Positions 35,045 through 43,999 of a stretch of DNA of 64,000 nucleotides are shown here, piece by piece (the first letter of the stretch is position 1; the number at the start of each line of letters is the position of its first letter). Below the pieces are notes generated by a model. The model did no database searches, was not told where the DNA came from, and worked only from the letters and a program-made list of their open reading frames with translations. Both the position numbers and the translations under genes were made by a program. Origin of the DNA: Oceanibaculum nanhaiense (lineage in GTDB: Bacteria; Pseudomonadota; Alphaproteobacteria; Oceanibaculales; Oceanibaculaceae); assembly GCF_002148795.1 (NCBI RefSeq), contig NZ_MPOB01000003.1, positions 248,001-312,000 on the forward strand, in the 5' to 3' direction.

Positions 35045-36226
35045 ATGGCACTGTCCACGAACGCGCTCGCGATCACCGGCTATGACGATCCTTATCGCTG
35101 GAACAAGGCCGCGCCGGTCGGAACGCCGGTCGTCGTGACCTACGCGTTCTCCAGCAGCCAACAGAGCTACGACACCGGTAACCGGCCCGGCTTCACAGCC
35201 ATGTCCGAGGCCCACCAGGCCTATGTAACGCAGGCGCTCGGCAAATGGGCGGCGGCCAGCGGTATCGCCTTCGTGCAGGTGCCGGAAAGTGCCGGCGGTC
35301 AGATTCGATTCGCCATGTTCGACATGGCAGCGGCCGGGCAGACCAATTCCGTCGGCAATCCGCTCAGCGGCTTTGGCTATTACCCGCAATCCGTCACGAC
35401 GACCGTAAATGGGGCAAGCACCGTCTCGACCTATTTCAATGCCATTGGCGGCGACGTTTACCTGAATTCCGTCACCTTCGCTGATGCCTCCAGTCTGGCG
35501 CCGGGCCAGCGCGGCTATTCCATTACCCTGCACGAGATCGGCCACGCCATCGGCTTCAAGCATCCCTTCGAGGGATCGCCCAGCGTCCAGGACAGCCTGG
35601 CCCTGGGCACGCTGACCGTCATGTCCTACGAACGCTCGCGCTCGACAACGGAGCTGGGCTCGGTCGATGTCGAAGCGGTACAGCATTATTATGGCTCGGC
35701 CAATTACGCGACGGAATGGGACCCCACGACGCTGACACTGCGTCAGACCGGCACCGATGGCGGCGAATGGATTCTGGGCACCGAGCTGGGCGATGTGATC
35801 TTCGGCCAGCGCGGCGGCGATACGCTGCGCGGCGAGCTGGGCAATGACGATCTGCGCGGCGGCAAGGGCCATGATTTGATCATCGGCGGGGACGGTAACG
35901 ATACGCTCTATTCCGGTCTCGGCTTCGACACGATGACCGGCGGATCGGGCAATGATGTCTTCGTGGTGCGCGGCTATGATGCGCGCTTTCCGCTAGCCGA
36001 CCTTGAGCCGACCATCACCGATTTCCAGGATGGCATCGACCGTATCGGCATCGAGGGCGTGACCGACGCCGACATTGCCACGATTCTGGCCACGCAGCAG
36101 AGCCTGTCCGGCCAGATCGGCGTGACCATCACCGTGGCGGGTACGAAGCCGGCAACCATTACTGTCATGGGCGTGTCGAGCCTCGACAGCAGCGACGTAT
36201 TTGCTGCCGATACGCTCCTGGCGTAA
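35045..36226 (+). CDS. M10 (serralysin-like) metalloprotease with RTX repeats
   Basis: 393 residues. The zinc site is HEIGHAIGFKH at 163-173 (HExxHxxGxxH) and the Met-turn is VMSYE near 193. RTX nonapeptides follow at about 240-305 (GGDTLRGELGNDDLRGG, GGDGNDTLYSG, GGSGNDVF), which bind Ca2+ and assist folding outside the cell. There is no N-terminal signal peptide, fitting type I secretion through a C-terminal signal, but no ABC exporter, membrane fusion protein or inhibitor gene is seen nearby. The spacing of HEIGH to Met-turn is normal, so it is likely active. Confidence 0.9.
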   Translation: MALSTNALAITGYDDPYRWNKAAPVGTPVVVTYAFSSSQQSYDTGNRPGFTAMSEAHQAYVTQALGKWAAASGIAFVQVPESAGGQIRFAMFDMAAAGQTNSVGNPLSGFGYYPQSVTTTVNGASTVSTYFNAIGGDVYLNSVTFADASSLAPGQRGYSITLHEIGHAIGFKHPFEGSPSVQDSLALGTLTVMSYERSRSTTELGSVDVEAVQHYYGSANYATEWDPTTLTLRQTGTDGGEWILGTELGDVIFGQRGGDTLRGELGNDDLRGGKGHDLIIGGDGNDTLYSGLGFDTMTGGSGNDVFVVRGYDARFPLADLEPTITDFQDGIDRIGIEGVTDADIATILATQQSLSGQIGVTITVAGTKPATITVMGVSSLDSSDVFAADTLLA

Positions 36227-39327: not shown

Positions 39328-39876
39328 TTAGCGGATCAGCTGCTCAATGAAGCCCTCGCCGAGGCCGTTCTGGCGGTAGTAGGCGCGGAACTTCTCGATG
39401 CGGGTGAACACATCCTCATAGCCGGTCTGCTTGCCGTTCTCATCGACATAGAGCAGCGGGCCCATATTGTGGAACAGGGTGGTCATGTGCCCGACCTTGG
39501 GATCGACCACCAGCGTATGGGTCTCGCCCGCCGGCTCGAAGATGAAGGTGCCCTTGGTGGCGACCCAATCATGCTCCAGATAGCCCCAGGCGCCGTCCAG
39601 CGTGTAGCCGGTGACCATCGCCGGATGGCGGTGGCGGCTGACGATGCCGCCGGCCTTGGCCTTTAGGATGTTCACCCAGCTGCCCTGCACGACATTCAGC
39701 ATCAGCGGGCGGATCCAGACATTGTCAGACAGCTGCATCCACATGCGCTCGTCATCGCCGGAGGTGTCGATCACCAGTTCCGGCGCCGCATCCATCGGCA
39801 GCGGGACACGCACGAAATTCTTGCCCGGCTTGCCCGGCGCAAGCTCTTCGGTCATCGGCACCACATTGCTGCTCAT
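39328..39876 (-). CDS. Cupin protein, 2,4'-dihydroxyacetophenone-dioxygenase-like
   Basis: 182 residues with one cupin barrel of the ChrR-cupin type. Metal-binding residues appear in SRHRHPAMVTGYTLDG (HxH and the following region) and in EPAGETHTLVVD (glutamate and histidine). The length and the sequence VGHMTTLFHNMGPLLYVDENG match the 2,4'-dihydroxyacetophenone dioxygenase-like family. Start chosen at 39876 with GGGAGG about eight bases upstream; longer in-frame starts are possible to 39945. It converges on the dehydrogenase gene, four bases apart, so could act on related metabolites. Confidence 0.8.
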   Translation of the reverse strand: MSSNVVPMTEELAPGKPGKNFVRVPLPMDAAPELVIDTSGDDERMWMQLSDNVWIRPLMLNVVQGSWVNILKAKAGGIVSRHRHPAMVTGYTLDGAWGYLEHDWVATKGTFIFEPAGETHTLVVDPKVGHMTTLFHNMGPLLYVDENGKQTGYEDVFTRIEKFRAYYRQNGLGEGFIEQLIR

Positions 39877-40033
39877 CGGTCTTTTCCTCCCAGAGTGATT
39901 GGTTGGCCAGAGTGGCTGATTGGCTTTCGCTCCTAGCATACACATAAGAAAAGCCGGTTAAACATTGCGCACCGCGCATGGGCGCCACGCGGGAGATTCA
40001 CACGGAGCGGAAACTGCACTAGCATCCGCTGCC

Positions 40034-40819
40034 ATGATGCATCGACCTGCCCTTCCCTGTCTGTTCATTGCGCTTGCCGCGCTGCTCACGCTGCCCGCGC
40101 AGGCGACTCCGATCGTCAATCAGGCCGAGACATACGCGCCCGGCTGGGACTATCAGGGACCGAACGGCCCCGTGCACTGGGGTACGCTGTCGCCATCCTA
40201 CTGGGCGTGCGGGCAGGGCACACGGCAATCGCCCATCGACGTGACCGCGCTGACCCCGGCCGATTTGCCGGAACTGACGCTGCATTATCCCGGCGGCCCG
40301 TTGTCGGTGATGCATACCGGCCGTCTGCTGAAGCTGCGCGGCGGGCCGCGCGATGTGCTGGACAGCGGCTGGAGCGCTTATAACCTGCGCCATATCGACA
40401 TAAGGGTGCCGGCGGAACACCGGCTGGACGGACGCGAATTCGCCGCCGAACTGCAGCTTGTGCATCAGCGCGCCGACGGCCATGTCGCCATCCTGTCGGT
40501 GCTGATGGAAGAAGGCCGGGCGAACCGCGCCATCGACCGGGTGCTGGCCGCCCTGCCGAGCGGGCCGGGGCTGGAACGCACCCTGCCCGACCAGGCTTTT
40601 TCCGCGCACGAGCTGCTGCCCGCCGATTTTTCCTATGCCCGCTATACCGGGTCGCTGACCACCCCGCCCTGCACCGAACGGGTCGACTGGGTCGTGCTGC
40701 GCACCCCGGTCACGCTGTCCGCCGAACAGGCGAAGCTGCTGCGCGAAGCGGTGGGCGGACGCGGCAATGCCCGCCCGCTGCAACCGCGCAATGGCCGGGA
40801 AATACCCGCCCGGTACTGA
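40034..40819 (+). CDS. Alpha-carbonic-anhydrase-like protein lacking zinc ligands
   Basis: 261 residues. Signal peptide at 1-24 (LFIALAALLTLPAQA). The alpha-CA fold is unmistakable: GPNGPVHWGTLSP, CGQGTRQSPIDV, LVHQRADGHVAILSVLMEEGRAN and SLTTPPCTERVDWVVL. The three zinc histidines are all replaced: the HxH pair of the usual FHFH-PSEH segment is D122 and R124 (IDIRVPAEH), and the third, before LVH, is Q141. The proton-shuttle position also appears to be R. So it should not hydrate CO2 and is probably a periplasmic binding or structural protein, analogous to animal CARPs. Confidence 0.9.
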   Translation: MMHRPALPCLFIALAALLTLPAQATPIVNQAETYAPGWDYQGPNGPVHWGTLSPSYWACGQGTRQSPIDVTALTPADLPELTLHYPGGPLSVMHTGRLLKLRGGPRDVLDSGWSAYNLRHIDIRVPAEHRLDGREFAAELQLVHQRADGHVAILSVLMEEGRANRAIDRVLAALPSGPGLERTLPDQAFSAHELLPADFSYARYTGSLTTPPCTERVDWVVLRTPVTLSAEQAKLLREAVGGRGNARPLQPRNGREIPARY

Positions 40820-40825
40820 CGCGGT

Positions 40826-43800
40826 TCAGCGCGTGGGCTGCGCCGGCGCAGTGTCGCCGCCACGGTCGCCGAAGAAGCGGAACAAATCGCGCAGGAAACC
40901 CGGCGCCAGCGCGGTCAGCGGATTCACCGTGACGCGCGGATTATCCGCCGGCCCGTCGAGACGGAATTCGGTCGCCAGCAGCCCCTCATCCTTGCCGCCG
41001 ACGATCAGCGGCCCGAGCAGCGGGATTGAGCCCAGTGCCTGGCTCAGCTGATAGGCCGGCACGATCAGCCCGGAGACATTGATGCCACCGTTCCCGTCAT
41101 CGATCACGCCATCGACCGACAGGCCCAGCGCCGCCCCCACGGCGCGCGCATTGCGGATACGCGTCACCTTGTCCTGGCGTTCGATATCGCCGGTGAGACG
41201 CGTAAAGACGATGCCTTCTCCGGCCAGGGCCGACTGGATATCCTGCGATCCGGTGACGCGCAGCACCTCGGCCAGCGCCTCGGCCCGGACGATCCGGAAA
41301 TCGGCAATGTCGAGCGCAGCCTGGATCGGTTTCCGGAAATCGTCGAAATCGGCGCGGCCATCGACACGCAGACGCCCCCCCACCATCCGGTCGAACAGGC
41401 CGAAACTGCGCAGCGCCGCACCGGCATCGTCGGAAACCAGAATGAATTCGTGGCCGCTGGCACCGGTGATCGGCGTGGCCACAAGATCGAAGCGTCCGGC
41501 TTCCGCCAGACGGCCGGCGATCTTCACATCGCGCCAGGTGGTGCCATCATGCACCAGATTGGCCTCGACCCCGTCCAGCAGCCGGTCATCCTCCAGCAGC
41601 ACGCGCTGGAACCGGCCATTCAGCCGCAGCGCCGGAAAGGTCGGCGGCGTGTCGTCCGCTTCGCCCTCTTCCTCCGCCAGGGCCGGGCGCAGATCGAGAC
41701 TGCGTCCCGACAGGTCGATGTCCAGCCCCCCGTCCGGCTGCCGGACGACGCTGCCCTCGATATCGGTCTGTCCCAGCTTCAGCTCGGTGAAATCAACCCG
41801 GCGGAGATGCTCGAAATCCGGTGTGAATTCGGCCTGGCCCACCGCCGCCAGATCGGAAGCGGCGATCTGGAACCGCTCGAAACGGGGGTCTCCGCCCTTC
41901 GGGATCGCGATATTCAGCCGCGCCATGCCGGCGATCTGCGGCGGCTTTGTCCAGCCCACCTCCGGCAGCGACAAGGTGGCGTCGCGCAGATCATGGGTCG
42001 CGGCGATGCGGTCGGTGCCGTCGCTGGCCTGCCGGTAATCGATCTCGGTCGCGACCGGCCCGGTCAGATAGGGCTGGAAATCGAAGCCAAGCCGGATGCG
42101 CGCGGCATCGTCCAGAATACCGGAGGCCTGGATGCGCCGGCGCACCTCGACATTGCTGCGGAATTCCTCGCGCCATGTCACCGGGATCGGTACATCGGCG
42201 AAACGCCCCGTCCCTTCGATGGTCATGCCGCGCCCGTCCAGCGTCAGGGCCAGTTCGCCGTCGCGGAAATCCTGATCCAGCAACACCTTGCGCAGGGAGA
42301 CGCCGCGCATGTTCGCCGCCGCCGCCAGCTTCACCCGGTCCAGCCCCAGATCGTTGACCAGCGGGAACTGGAACACCAGCCGCGCCGCCGCCAGCCCGTC
42401 CACATTGGCCGGCGGGATGCCCAGCGCCGTCGCATAGTCCAGTGGCTTGTGATCGATCACCCGCATGACATCGCGCAAGGGGCCGCGTACCACCACCTCG
42501 ATATCGGCCAGTTCCTTTTTGCCGTCGAGCCCGGTCAAATCGATGGTGGCGGGGCCAGCCGCCAGATCGTACAGCCGACCGCTTTCCACATCGATCTTGA
42601 ACCGTCCGGGCGAGAATTCTGCCCGACCCGTCGTTTCCAGCACCGGCGGCAAGGGCCGCATGTAATGGGTGGTGACGCCGGAAAAGGCGATCTCGCCGTC
42701 AAAATCCTCCACGGCGAGGTCGCTGGGATCGTCCCGCGCCATCCGCCCGCGCAGCGAGATGCGCGCTCTTGAGACGCCGCCGCCTTCCAGATTCGCCGTG
42801 ACCCAGCGCCGAGGGTTGCGGCCAACCTCGCGCGGCCAGTATCCGGCGAGATCGTCGGTTGTGACATTCTCCGCCACCGCCTCGGCGACCAGCCCGTAGC
42901 TGTCGGCATTGCCCACATCGATGAGCGTGCCGGTAAGGCTCAACCGCGGCCCCGCCTTCGCCGCCGTTCCCAGATCGATGACCAGGCTGGGCAGCATCAC
43001 CATCGCGCTCTCACGGCGGTAATTCACCGTCGCCTGGATGGCGCGCACCGGCAGCGGCAGATCGTAGAGCGTGGGCAGGTCGATCTGTCCGCCCTGCCCG
43101 CGCACATTCACCTCGATGCTGCGCGCCACGGTCAGCGCCTCGGCCTCGATCTCCACACTGCCGGACAGCGGCACGCCGACGGCCGACAGCGCGGCCAGTT
43201 CCGGCACCTTGCGGGCCAGCGCATCCGGCTCCAGCCCGCTGAACTCGACGGACAGGCGCGAGGTCCGGTCGTCCAGGCGATGGCTGCCCTCGAAGCTCAC
43301 CATCAACGGCATGGTGCCAAGATCGAATTCCAGCATGCCGCGGCTGCGCACACCTCTCTCGCCACGCCGCAGCAGGATATCCGCGCTGGGCACCGACCAT
43401 TGCGTGCCCAGCGCCAGATCGATGATGGTGAGGCTGGCGCGCCGCACCCGCACGATCTCCAGATAGCCGGTGGCGCTGTCCGGGTCGGGCGCGCGGTTCA
43501 GCTCCTCGGCGATGAGGGTGAGCGCATCGTCCGTCACCGCCGTCTTGCTCACCTCATCCGGCAGGCTGTCCGGCGGTCCGAGGCGCAGGCTGCCATCGCG
43601 CAGCCGCACGACGGAGAAGGCCGGCTCGACCGCCTCGATTTCCACCGGCGCCAGCAGGCCGCGCAGCAGGCCGCGCAGGCTGAACCGGATCTGGATCGCC
43701 GGCACCGATGCGGTCGGCCCGCCCGCATGGCCGGCGATCCGAACATCCGTCGCCTCCAGCTTCAGCGATTTTTCCTCGGCCTCCCAGACGATCTGCGTGC

Positions 43801-43999
43801 GTTCCAGCGCAATATCGTAGCCGGGCAAAGCCTGTTCGAGGGCCGATTCGGTGTAGGGACGCAGGAAATCCAGCGCGATCGGCCCGGCGGTCAGGCGCCA
43901 GAAGGCCAGCATCAGCAGGACACTGAGCGCCGCGACCGAGCCGGCCATCACCTCAAGGGCGATGACGGCGCTTCGCCGCAAGGTCGGGCGCCGAATCAC
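40826..43999 (-). CDS. AsmA-like/DUF3971 envelope protein (YhdP/TamB-related)
   Basis: 1057 residues: one N-terminal transmembrane helix (about 10-37) followed by a very long beta-rich periplasmic part with DUF3971-type sequence and a C-terminal AsmA-2-type segment ending near PLLGPLIVGGKDEGLLATEFRLDGP. Members of this group span the periplasm as hydrophobic grooves and carry phospholipids toward the outer membrane. Size and topology match. It diverges from glnE by 104 bases and ends seven bases from the converging carbonic-anhydrase-like gene. Confidence 0.85.
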   Translation of the reverse strand: MIRRPTLRRSAVIALEVMAGSVAALSVLLMLAFWRLTAGPIALDFLRPYTESALEQALPGYDIALERTQIVWEAEEKSLKLEATDVRIAGHAGGPTASVPAIQIRFSLRGLLRGLLAPVEIEAVEPAFSVVRLRDGSLRLGPPDSLPDEVSKTAVTDDALTLIAEELNRAPDPDSATGYLEIVRVRRASLTIIDLALGTQWSVPSADILLRRGERGVRSRGMLEFDLGTMPLMVSFEGSHRLDDRTSRLSVEFSGLEPDALARKVPELAALSAVGVPLSGSVEIEAEALTVARSIEVNVRGQGGQIDLPTLYDLPLPVRAIQATVNYRRESAMVMLPSLVIDLGTAAKAGPRLSLTGTLIDVGNADSYGLVAEAVAENVTTDDLAGYWPREVGRNPRRWVTANLEGGGVSRARISLRGRMARDDPSDLAVEDFDGEIAFSGVTTHYMRPLPPVLETTGRAEFSPGRFKIDVESGRLYDLAAGPATIDLTGLDGKKELADIEVVVRGPLRDVMRVIDHKPLDYATALGIPPANVDGLAAARLVFQFPLVNDLGLDRVKLAAAANMRGVSLRKVLLDQDFRDGELALTLDGRGMTIEGTGRFADVPIPVTWREEFRSNVEVRRRIQASGILDDAARIRLGFDFQPYLTGPVATEIDYRQASDGTDRIAATHDLRDATLSLPEVGWTKPPQIAGMARLNIAIPKGGDPRFERFQIAASDLAAVGQAEFTPDFEHLRRVDFTELKLGQTDIEGSVVRQPDGGLDIDLSGRSLDLRPALAEEEGEADDTPPTFPALRLNGRFQRVLLEDDRLLDGVEANLVHDGTTWRDVKIAGRLAEAGRFDLVATPITGASGHEFILVSDDAGAALRSFGLFDRMVGGRLRVDGRADFDDFRKPIQAALDIADFRIVRAEALAEVLRVTGSQDIQSALAGEGIVFTRLTGDIERQDKVTRIRNARAVGAALGLSVDGVIDDGNGGINVSGLIVPAYQLSQALGSIPLLGPLIVGGKDEGLLATEFRLDGPADNPRVTVNPLTALAPGFLRDLFRFFGDRGGDTAPAQPTR

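Follow-up and report, generated by a model that had tools for sequence, protein, structure and literature searches.

The 64,000-nucleotide stretch of Oceanibaculum nanhaiense DNA analysed here (the window) includes a gene on the forward strand at 40034–40819 which encodes a homologue of the α-carbonic anhydrases (α-CAs) without the zinc-binding histidines. The open reading frame has an ATG start and a TGA stop and is unbroken over 261 amino acids, and residues 1–24 (MMHRPALPCLFIALAALLTLPAQA, cut before T25; 40034–40105, forward strand) were read by eye as a putative signal peptide in which no lipobox could be seen, with a similar leader found in the orthologue described below. This is the sole α-CA gene (PF00194) of its genome, which also encodes a β-CA, and it is solitary at the locus. 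On the divergent side lies a cupin (ChrR-like) gene (39328–39945, reverse strand; PF12973) whose conserved part begins at about 39891 and which shows synteny with genomes G001–G003, while the convergent neighbour encodes a YhdP-like envelope protein (40826–43999, reverse strand; PF13116, 106.7 bits). As the YhdP and CA homologue genes are convergent, we rejected the possibility that they form an operon. A recent arrival as foreign DNA was also unsupported (gene GC 0.68 and GC3 0.80, within or near the range of the neighbourhood), as was a phage or viral origin, since the viral contigs held no matches; we note that a few matches titled 'Listeria phage' look like host DNA. Further upstream in the window, 35045–36226 encodes a serralysin-like protein that has a Peptidase_M10 domain and RTX calcium-binding repeats.

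The window protein matches the PF00194 profile with 106 bits (E 3e-30; cut-off 27 bits), and we assigned ligand positions by phmmer and MAFFT alignments to bacterial α-CAs using hCA II numbering. In these alignments D122 (40397–40399, this and the following codons on the forward strand) is paired with zinc ligand H94, R124 (40403–40405) with H96 and Q141 (40454–40456) with H119, and R97 (40322–40324) is found at the position of the proton shuttle His64. The gatekeepers Glu106 and Thr199 are retained as E128 (40415–40417) and T209 (40658–40660), together with the QSP motif, GSLTTPPC, E139 (E117), W219, R247 and the Cys pair C59/C213. An earlier note on this DNA had described well-kept fold motifs with all three ligands and the shuttle changed, and the alignments confirm that description. 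The His64 proton shuttle is not universal in the α-CA family, and Arg at position 96 is incompatible with normal zinc geometry. No plausible set of three alternative histidines was found at the metal site, as by the established hCA II structure H120 (position 92) points into the pocket, and H129 and H144 are the buried 107/122 histidines which are present in canonical enzymes too. From the missing ligands we infer that the window protein would have no catalytic activity. All three histidines are missing in both orthologues, which places them among the CA-related proteins (CARPs) as broadly defined, that is, α-CA homologues without one or more of the zinc histidines (PMC2873310), and the D-R-Q site of the window protein differs from the His-His-Gln site of eta-class enzymes.

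The α-CA fold itself is predicted to be intact. An AlphaFold2 model, for which an alignment of the window protein and 61 Gln119-type homologues was used as input, had a mean pLDDT of 93.5 and a pTM of 0.88, and the top PDB matches of this model in Foldseek were all α-CAs, with bacterial proteins first (TM 0.88/0.94 for 6im0 and 0.86/0.92 for the Neisseria protein 1koq, and 0.86–0.94 over the bacterial α-CAs).

An orthologue in a genus-mate (L003 in genome G003) is 82% identical and has the same D/R/Q triad, and sequencing error can therefore be excluded as the source of these residues. Nei-Gojobori estimates for the two genes gave a dN/dS of 0.278 over the whole gene, and three neighbouring genes gave values of 0 to 0.20. 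Over residues 99–160, which span the former metal-site strands (40328–40513, forward strand), dN/dS was 0.025, with one amino-acid change in 62 residues and 19 synonymous changes; by the same counts, two non-synonymous changes were observed where ~17 would be expected if these were evenly spread. Recent gene conversion does not explain this near-invariance, as the dS of 0.58 in the same residues is not lowered, and the conserved pocket which the earlier note had suggested looking for is evident between the orthologues. The gene is cleanly absent from two of the four sequenced genus members, where ~70–125 bp separate the conserved cupin and YhdP parts, and it is therefore dispensable: an accessory gene which is under constraint where present. 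Although this absence and the β-CA encoded elsewhere in the genome might be expected of a decaying pseudogene of a lost α-CA, we regard such decay as highly improbable, as it is contradicted by the pattern of selection, with both carriers showing an intact frame, a dN/dS of 0.28, a near-invariant pocket, the same triad and a confidently predicted fold. The earlier argument that a non-catalytic function has been retained is supported by the intact predicted fold, by the clean frame in the 82%-identical orthologue and by purifying selection focused on the metal site.

Retention could also be explained if the protein were still an enzyme, perhaps of weak activity, whose metal site had been remodelled; H120, D122 and Q141 might, for instance, be placed around zinc or another metal in a manner comparable to the eta-class His-His-Gln site of Plasmodium. 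The conservation of H120 and D122 in the orthologue and the retained gatekeepers E128 and T209 are consistent with this, but Arg124 occupies the central ligand position, the shuttle is an Arg, and we know of no metal site comparable to H120/D122/Q141. While Gln at position 119 is compatible with activity in the Plasmodium enzyme PfCA, a Toxoplasma homologue (CA_RP) remained inactive when His residues were put back (PMC5437132). Taken together, we consider a remodelled enzyme to be improbable.

Most of the homologues aligned in class- and phylum-level samples were canonical HHH proteins, with ligand loss seen in eight loci outside the genus (QRQ, DHH, EHQ, THQ, EHH, NHH, ERQ and KHQ), though these samples were of the best-scoring loci and the frequency of loss in them is not unbiased. 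A scan of genome contigs for close relatives with the protein alone gave no match, but a degenerate DNA pattern for the metal-site strands, in which Gln was required at position 119, was successful (we estimate that ~2 matches would be expected by chance in the whole collection, and there were none in 100 shuffles of the window). This identified at least 117 bacterial loci; 116 of the matches listed were homologous to the window protein, and about 110 of those listed lacked at least two zinc ligands. The triads among the matches listed included DHQ (17), VHQ (13), EHQ (10), SHQ (9), NHQ (9), QHQ (7), RHQ (7) and LHQ (6), plus forms with Arg or Lys at the middle position (x-R/K-Q), and a further five bacterial loci among them were HHQ and could be eta-like enzymes. 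In the survey for the D/R/Q triad that the earlier note had proposed, the exact triad proved rare, being found in this genus and in one Methylophilales locus among the matches listed, and the common theme is the loss of H94 with H119 replaced by Gln and sometimes H96 replaced by Arg or Lys. Judged by record titles the loci are spread over at least 11 named phyla (12 with one short fragment), but these counts are approximate as some titles are probably wrong, for instance 'Rickettsia typhi' given to contigs from lake metagenomes (L092, L153, L189 and other bins). Many of the listed loci are from metagenome bins with doubtful labels. No zinc-less relatives were found in the viral contigs searched, and the three plasmid homologues we checked were all canonical HHH. 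By sequence reading, two loci have a CA-like domain fused to an apparent β-propeller (L183) or to an apparent membrane region (L158).

Phylogenetic trees were constructed with the three ligand columns removed and no animal sequences included. A tree of 138 rows needed 19 changes between HHH and non-HHH states and a more careful tree of 51 rows needed eight, six of which were forced by well-supported branches, though such counts alone do not separate the loss of ligands from their gain; in the 51-row tree, the non-HHH forms made up one group in none of 200 bootstrap trees. Two cases stand out most clearly: the QRQ protein L007 (G275:C99:9549-10307) groups with the HHH orthologues of its own genus, with which it shares 65–73% identity, and DHQ proteins from cultured species of Citrobacter (L087, L107 and L125) are nested in a canonical clade; no near relative of this Citrobacter gene was found in E. 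coli genomes. A long branch leads to the window protein and its orthologue, without a supported nearest neighbour. Zinc-less CA relatives have arisen repeatedly in many bacteria, which suggests that the fold has often been put to new use in binding and is not simply decaying. In the genus of L007, the α-CA orthologues of three genomes (L064, L029 and L066) are HHH and that of the fourth is QRQ, and the L007 changes at positions 62, 64, 67, 92, 96 and 119 resemble those of the window protein.

The residues around the lost site show trends of their own. Positions 64, 121 and 200 are relaxed in the Gln119 proteins and Arg or Lys emerges at 67, and the net charge over 11 pocket positions, with kinship ignored, was +0.2 for HHH, +0.8 for xHQ and +1.4 for x[RK]Q proteins and +3 for the window protein. 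T199, W209 and R246, which were not demanded by the search pattern, are near-invariant in the Gln119 proteins (again with kinship ignored). These trends suggest a pocket that may have been re-tuned toward an anionic group.

We think it probable that the window gene encodes an exported periplasmic protein of α-CA fold which has lost the catalytic zinc and CO2 hydration and has been retained because its pocket binds something. The protein would be located in the periplasm, hold no zinc, hydrate no CO2 and serve in binding, with a pocket which, by alignment, would be lined by R97, K100, H120, D122, R124 and Q141. A β-CA encoded in the same genome is in keeping with this reading, whereas the absence of the gene from two genus members counts against it. 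Zinc-less homologues have the more positively charged pockets, and on that basis our guess is that the ligand may have an acidic group and could be a lipid head group, glycan, peptide or small anion. The outer surface might instead act as a structural or protein–protein module, with the pocket conserved for folding stability only, as animal CARPs work through partner proteins (neurexin, PMC8024894; MCT1, PMC6609565) and linker-tethered and fused bacterial forms exist. We consider this unlikely, since the near-invariant stretch corresponds to the pocket strands and not to outer segments, and the changes in pocket charge consistently point the same way.

In Hyphomicrobiales (L143, L088, L120, L163, L166, L171 and L190) the zinc-less homologue heads an Mla phospholipid-transport cluster of ABC ATPase, MlaE, MlaD, MlaA and MlaC genes, and in Methylophilaceae (L112:1005–2339 and others) the gene is between those for LolB and an IspE-like kinase and encodes an Adhesin_E domain, a long Ala/Lys/Pro-rich linker and the zinc-less CA domain. 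In Kordiimonadales and relatives (L081:4472–5347; L145, L152 and L224) the CA homologue is followed on the same strand by a conserved lipoprotein-like gene which has no Pfam match, an N-terminal hydrophobic segment occurs together with a linker in several forms from Bdellovibrionota, and many relatives have signal peptides, membrane anchors or long linkers. As read from these sequences, the cell envelope is the theme common to these contexts. We rejected a general association with lipid transport, as this is limited to two CARP clades (Hyphomicrobiales with Mla and Methylophilaceae with LolB) plus the convergent YhdP gene, and one canonical control locus has a weak MlaE homologue nearby; a lipid-transport role is therefore a lead only, and any tie between the window protein and outer-membrane lipid or lipoprotein transport would be a guess.

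A broader proposal, which we offer tentatively and think rather doubtful as a whole, is that bacterial CARPs are a widespread class derived repeatedly from α-CAs by a preferred path, in which H94 is lost, H119 becomes Gln, H96 then becomes Arg or Lys and the pocket becomes more positive. The outcome would be binding modules of the envelope, which some lineages would have linked to the transport of outer-membrane lipids or lipoproteins (Mla, LolB and YhdP). We regard the recurrent bacterial CARP set as a more valuable result than the window gene alone. It indicates that bacteria, too, have many times undergone the kind of conversion seen in animal CARPs, once between 65–73% identical orthologues of a single genus, and such close pairs of canonical and zinc-less proteins, together with cultured carriers (Methylophilus, Kordiimonas and Citrobacter), open the question of CARP ligands to bacterial genetics. 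Zinc-less genes of this kind will probably carry carbonic anhydrase annotations despite the missing zinc ligands.

The earlier remark that little has been written about bacterial counterparts of the animal CARPs holds within the open-licence literature searched, where animal, apicomplexan and viral proteins are covered and we found no description of bacterial CARPs, though such absence is not proof; in a bacterial CA review (PMC5746736) the term 'acatalytic' is absent and the passages using 'inactive' concern β and γ enzymes. Animal CARPs VIII, X and XI and the CA-like domains of RPTP β/γ have the α-CA fold without the zinc histidines, as does the window protein, and Gln at 119, also seen in the window protein, and sometimes Arg at 94 recur amongst them; cnidarian CARPs are often R-H-Q (PMC4981384). 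In contrast, the window protein is D-R-Q and is nearest to bacterial CAs (161 bits vs ~77 bits for human-type CAs), from which we infer an origin independent of the animal CARPs. The apicomplexan proteins TgCA_RP of Toxoplasma (F-H-Q, inactive and membrane-tethered) and PfCA of Plasmodium (an active H-H-Q enzyme of the eta-class; both PMC5437132) share Gln at 119 with the window protein but keep His96. Dioscorin (4twl), a plant CA-like protein whose structure was solved with ascorbate bound, has the CA fold and 31–32% identity to the window protein in Foldseek, a likeness of overall fold, metal-site residues aside. The bacterial periplasmic α-CAs of Persephonella (6im0), Neisseria (1koq) and Thermovibrio (4c3t) are like the window protein in fold (TM 0.86–0.94), export leader, Cys pair and gatekeepers and are 34–35% identical to it, but the window protein differs from them in that none of the three zinc ligands, nor the proton shuttle, is retained.
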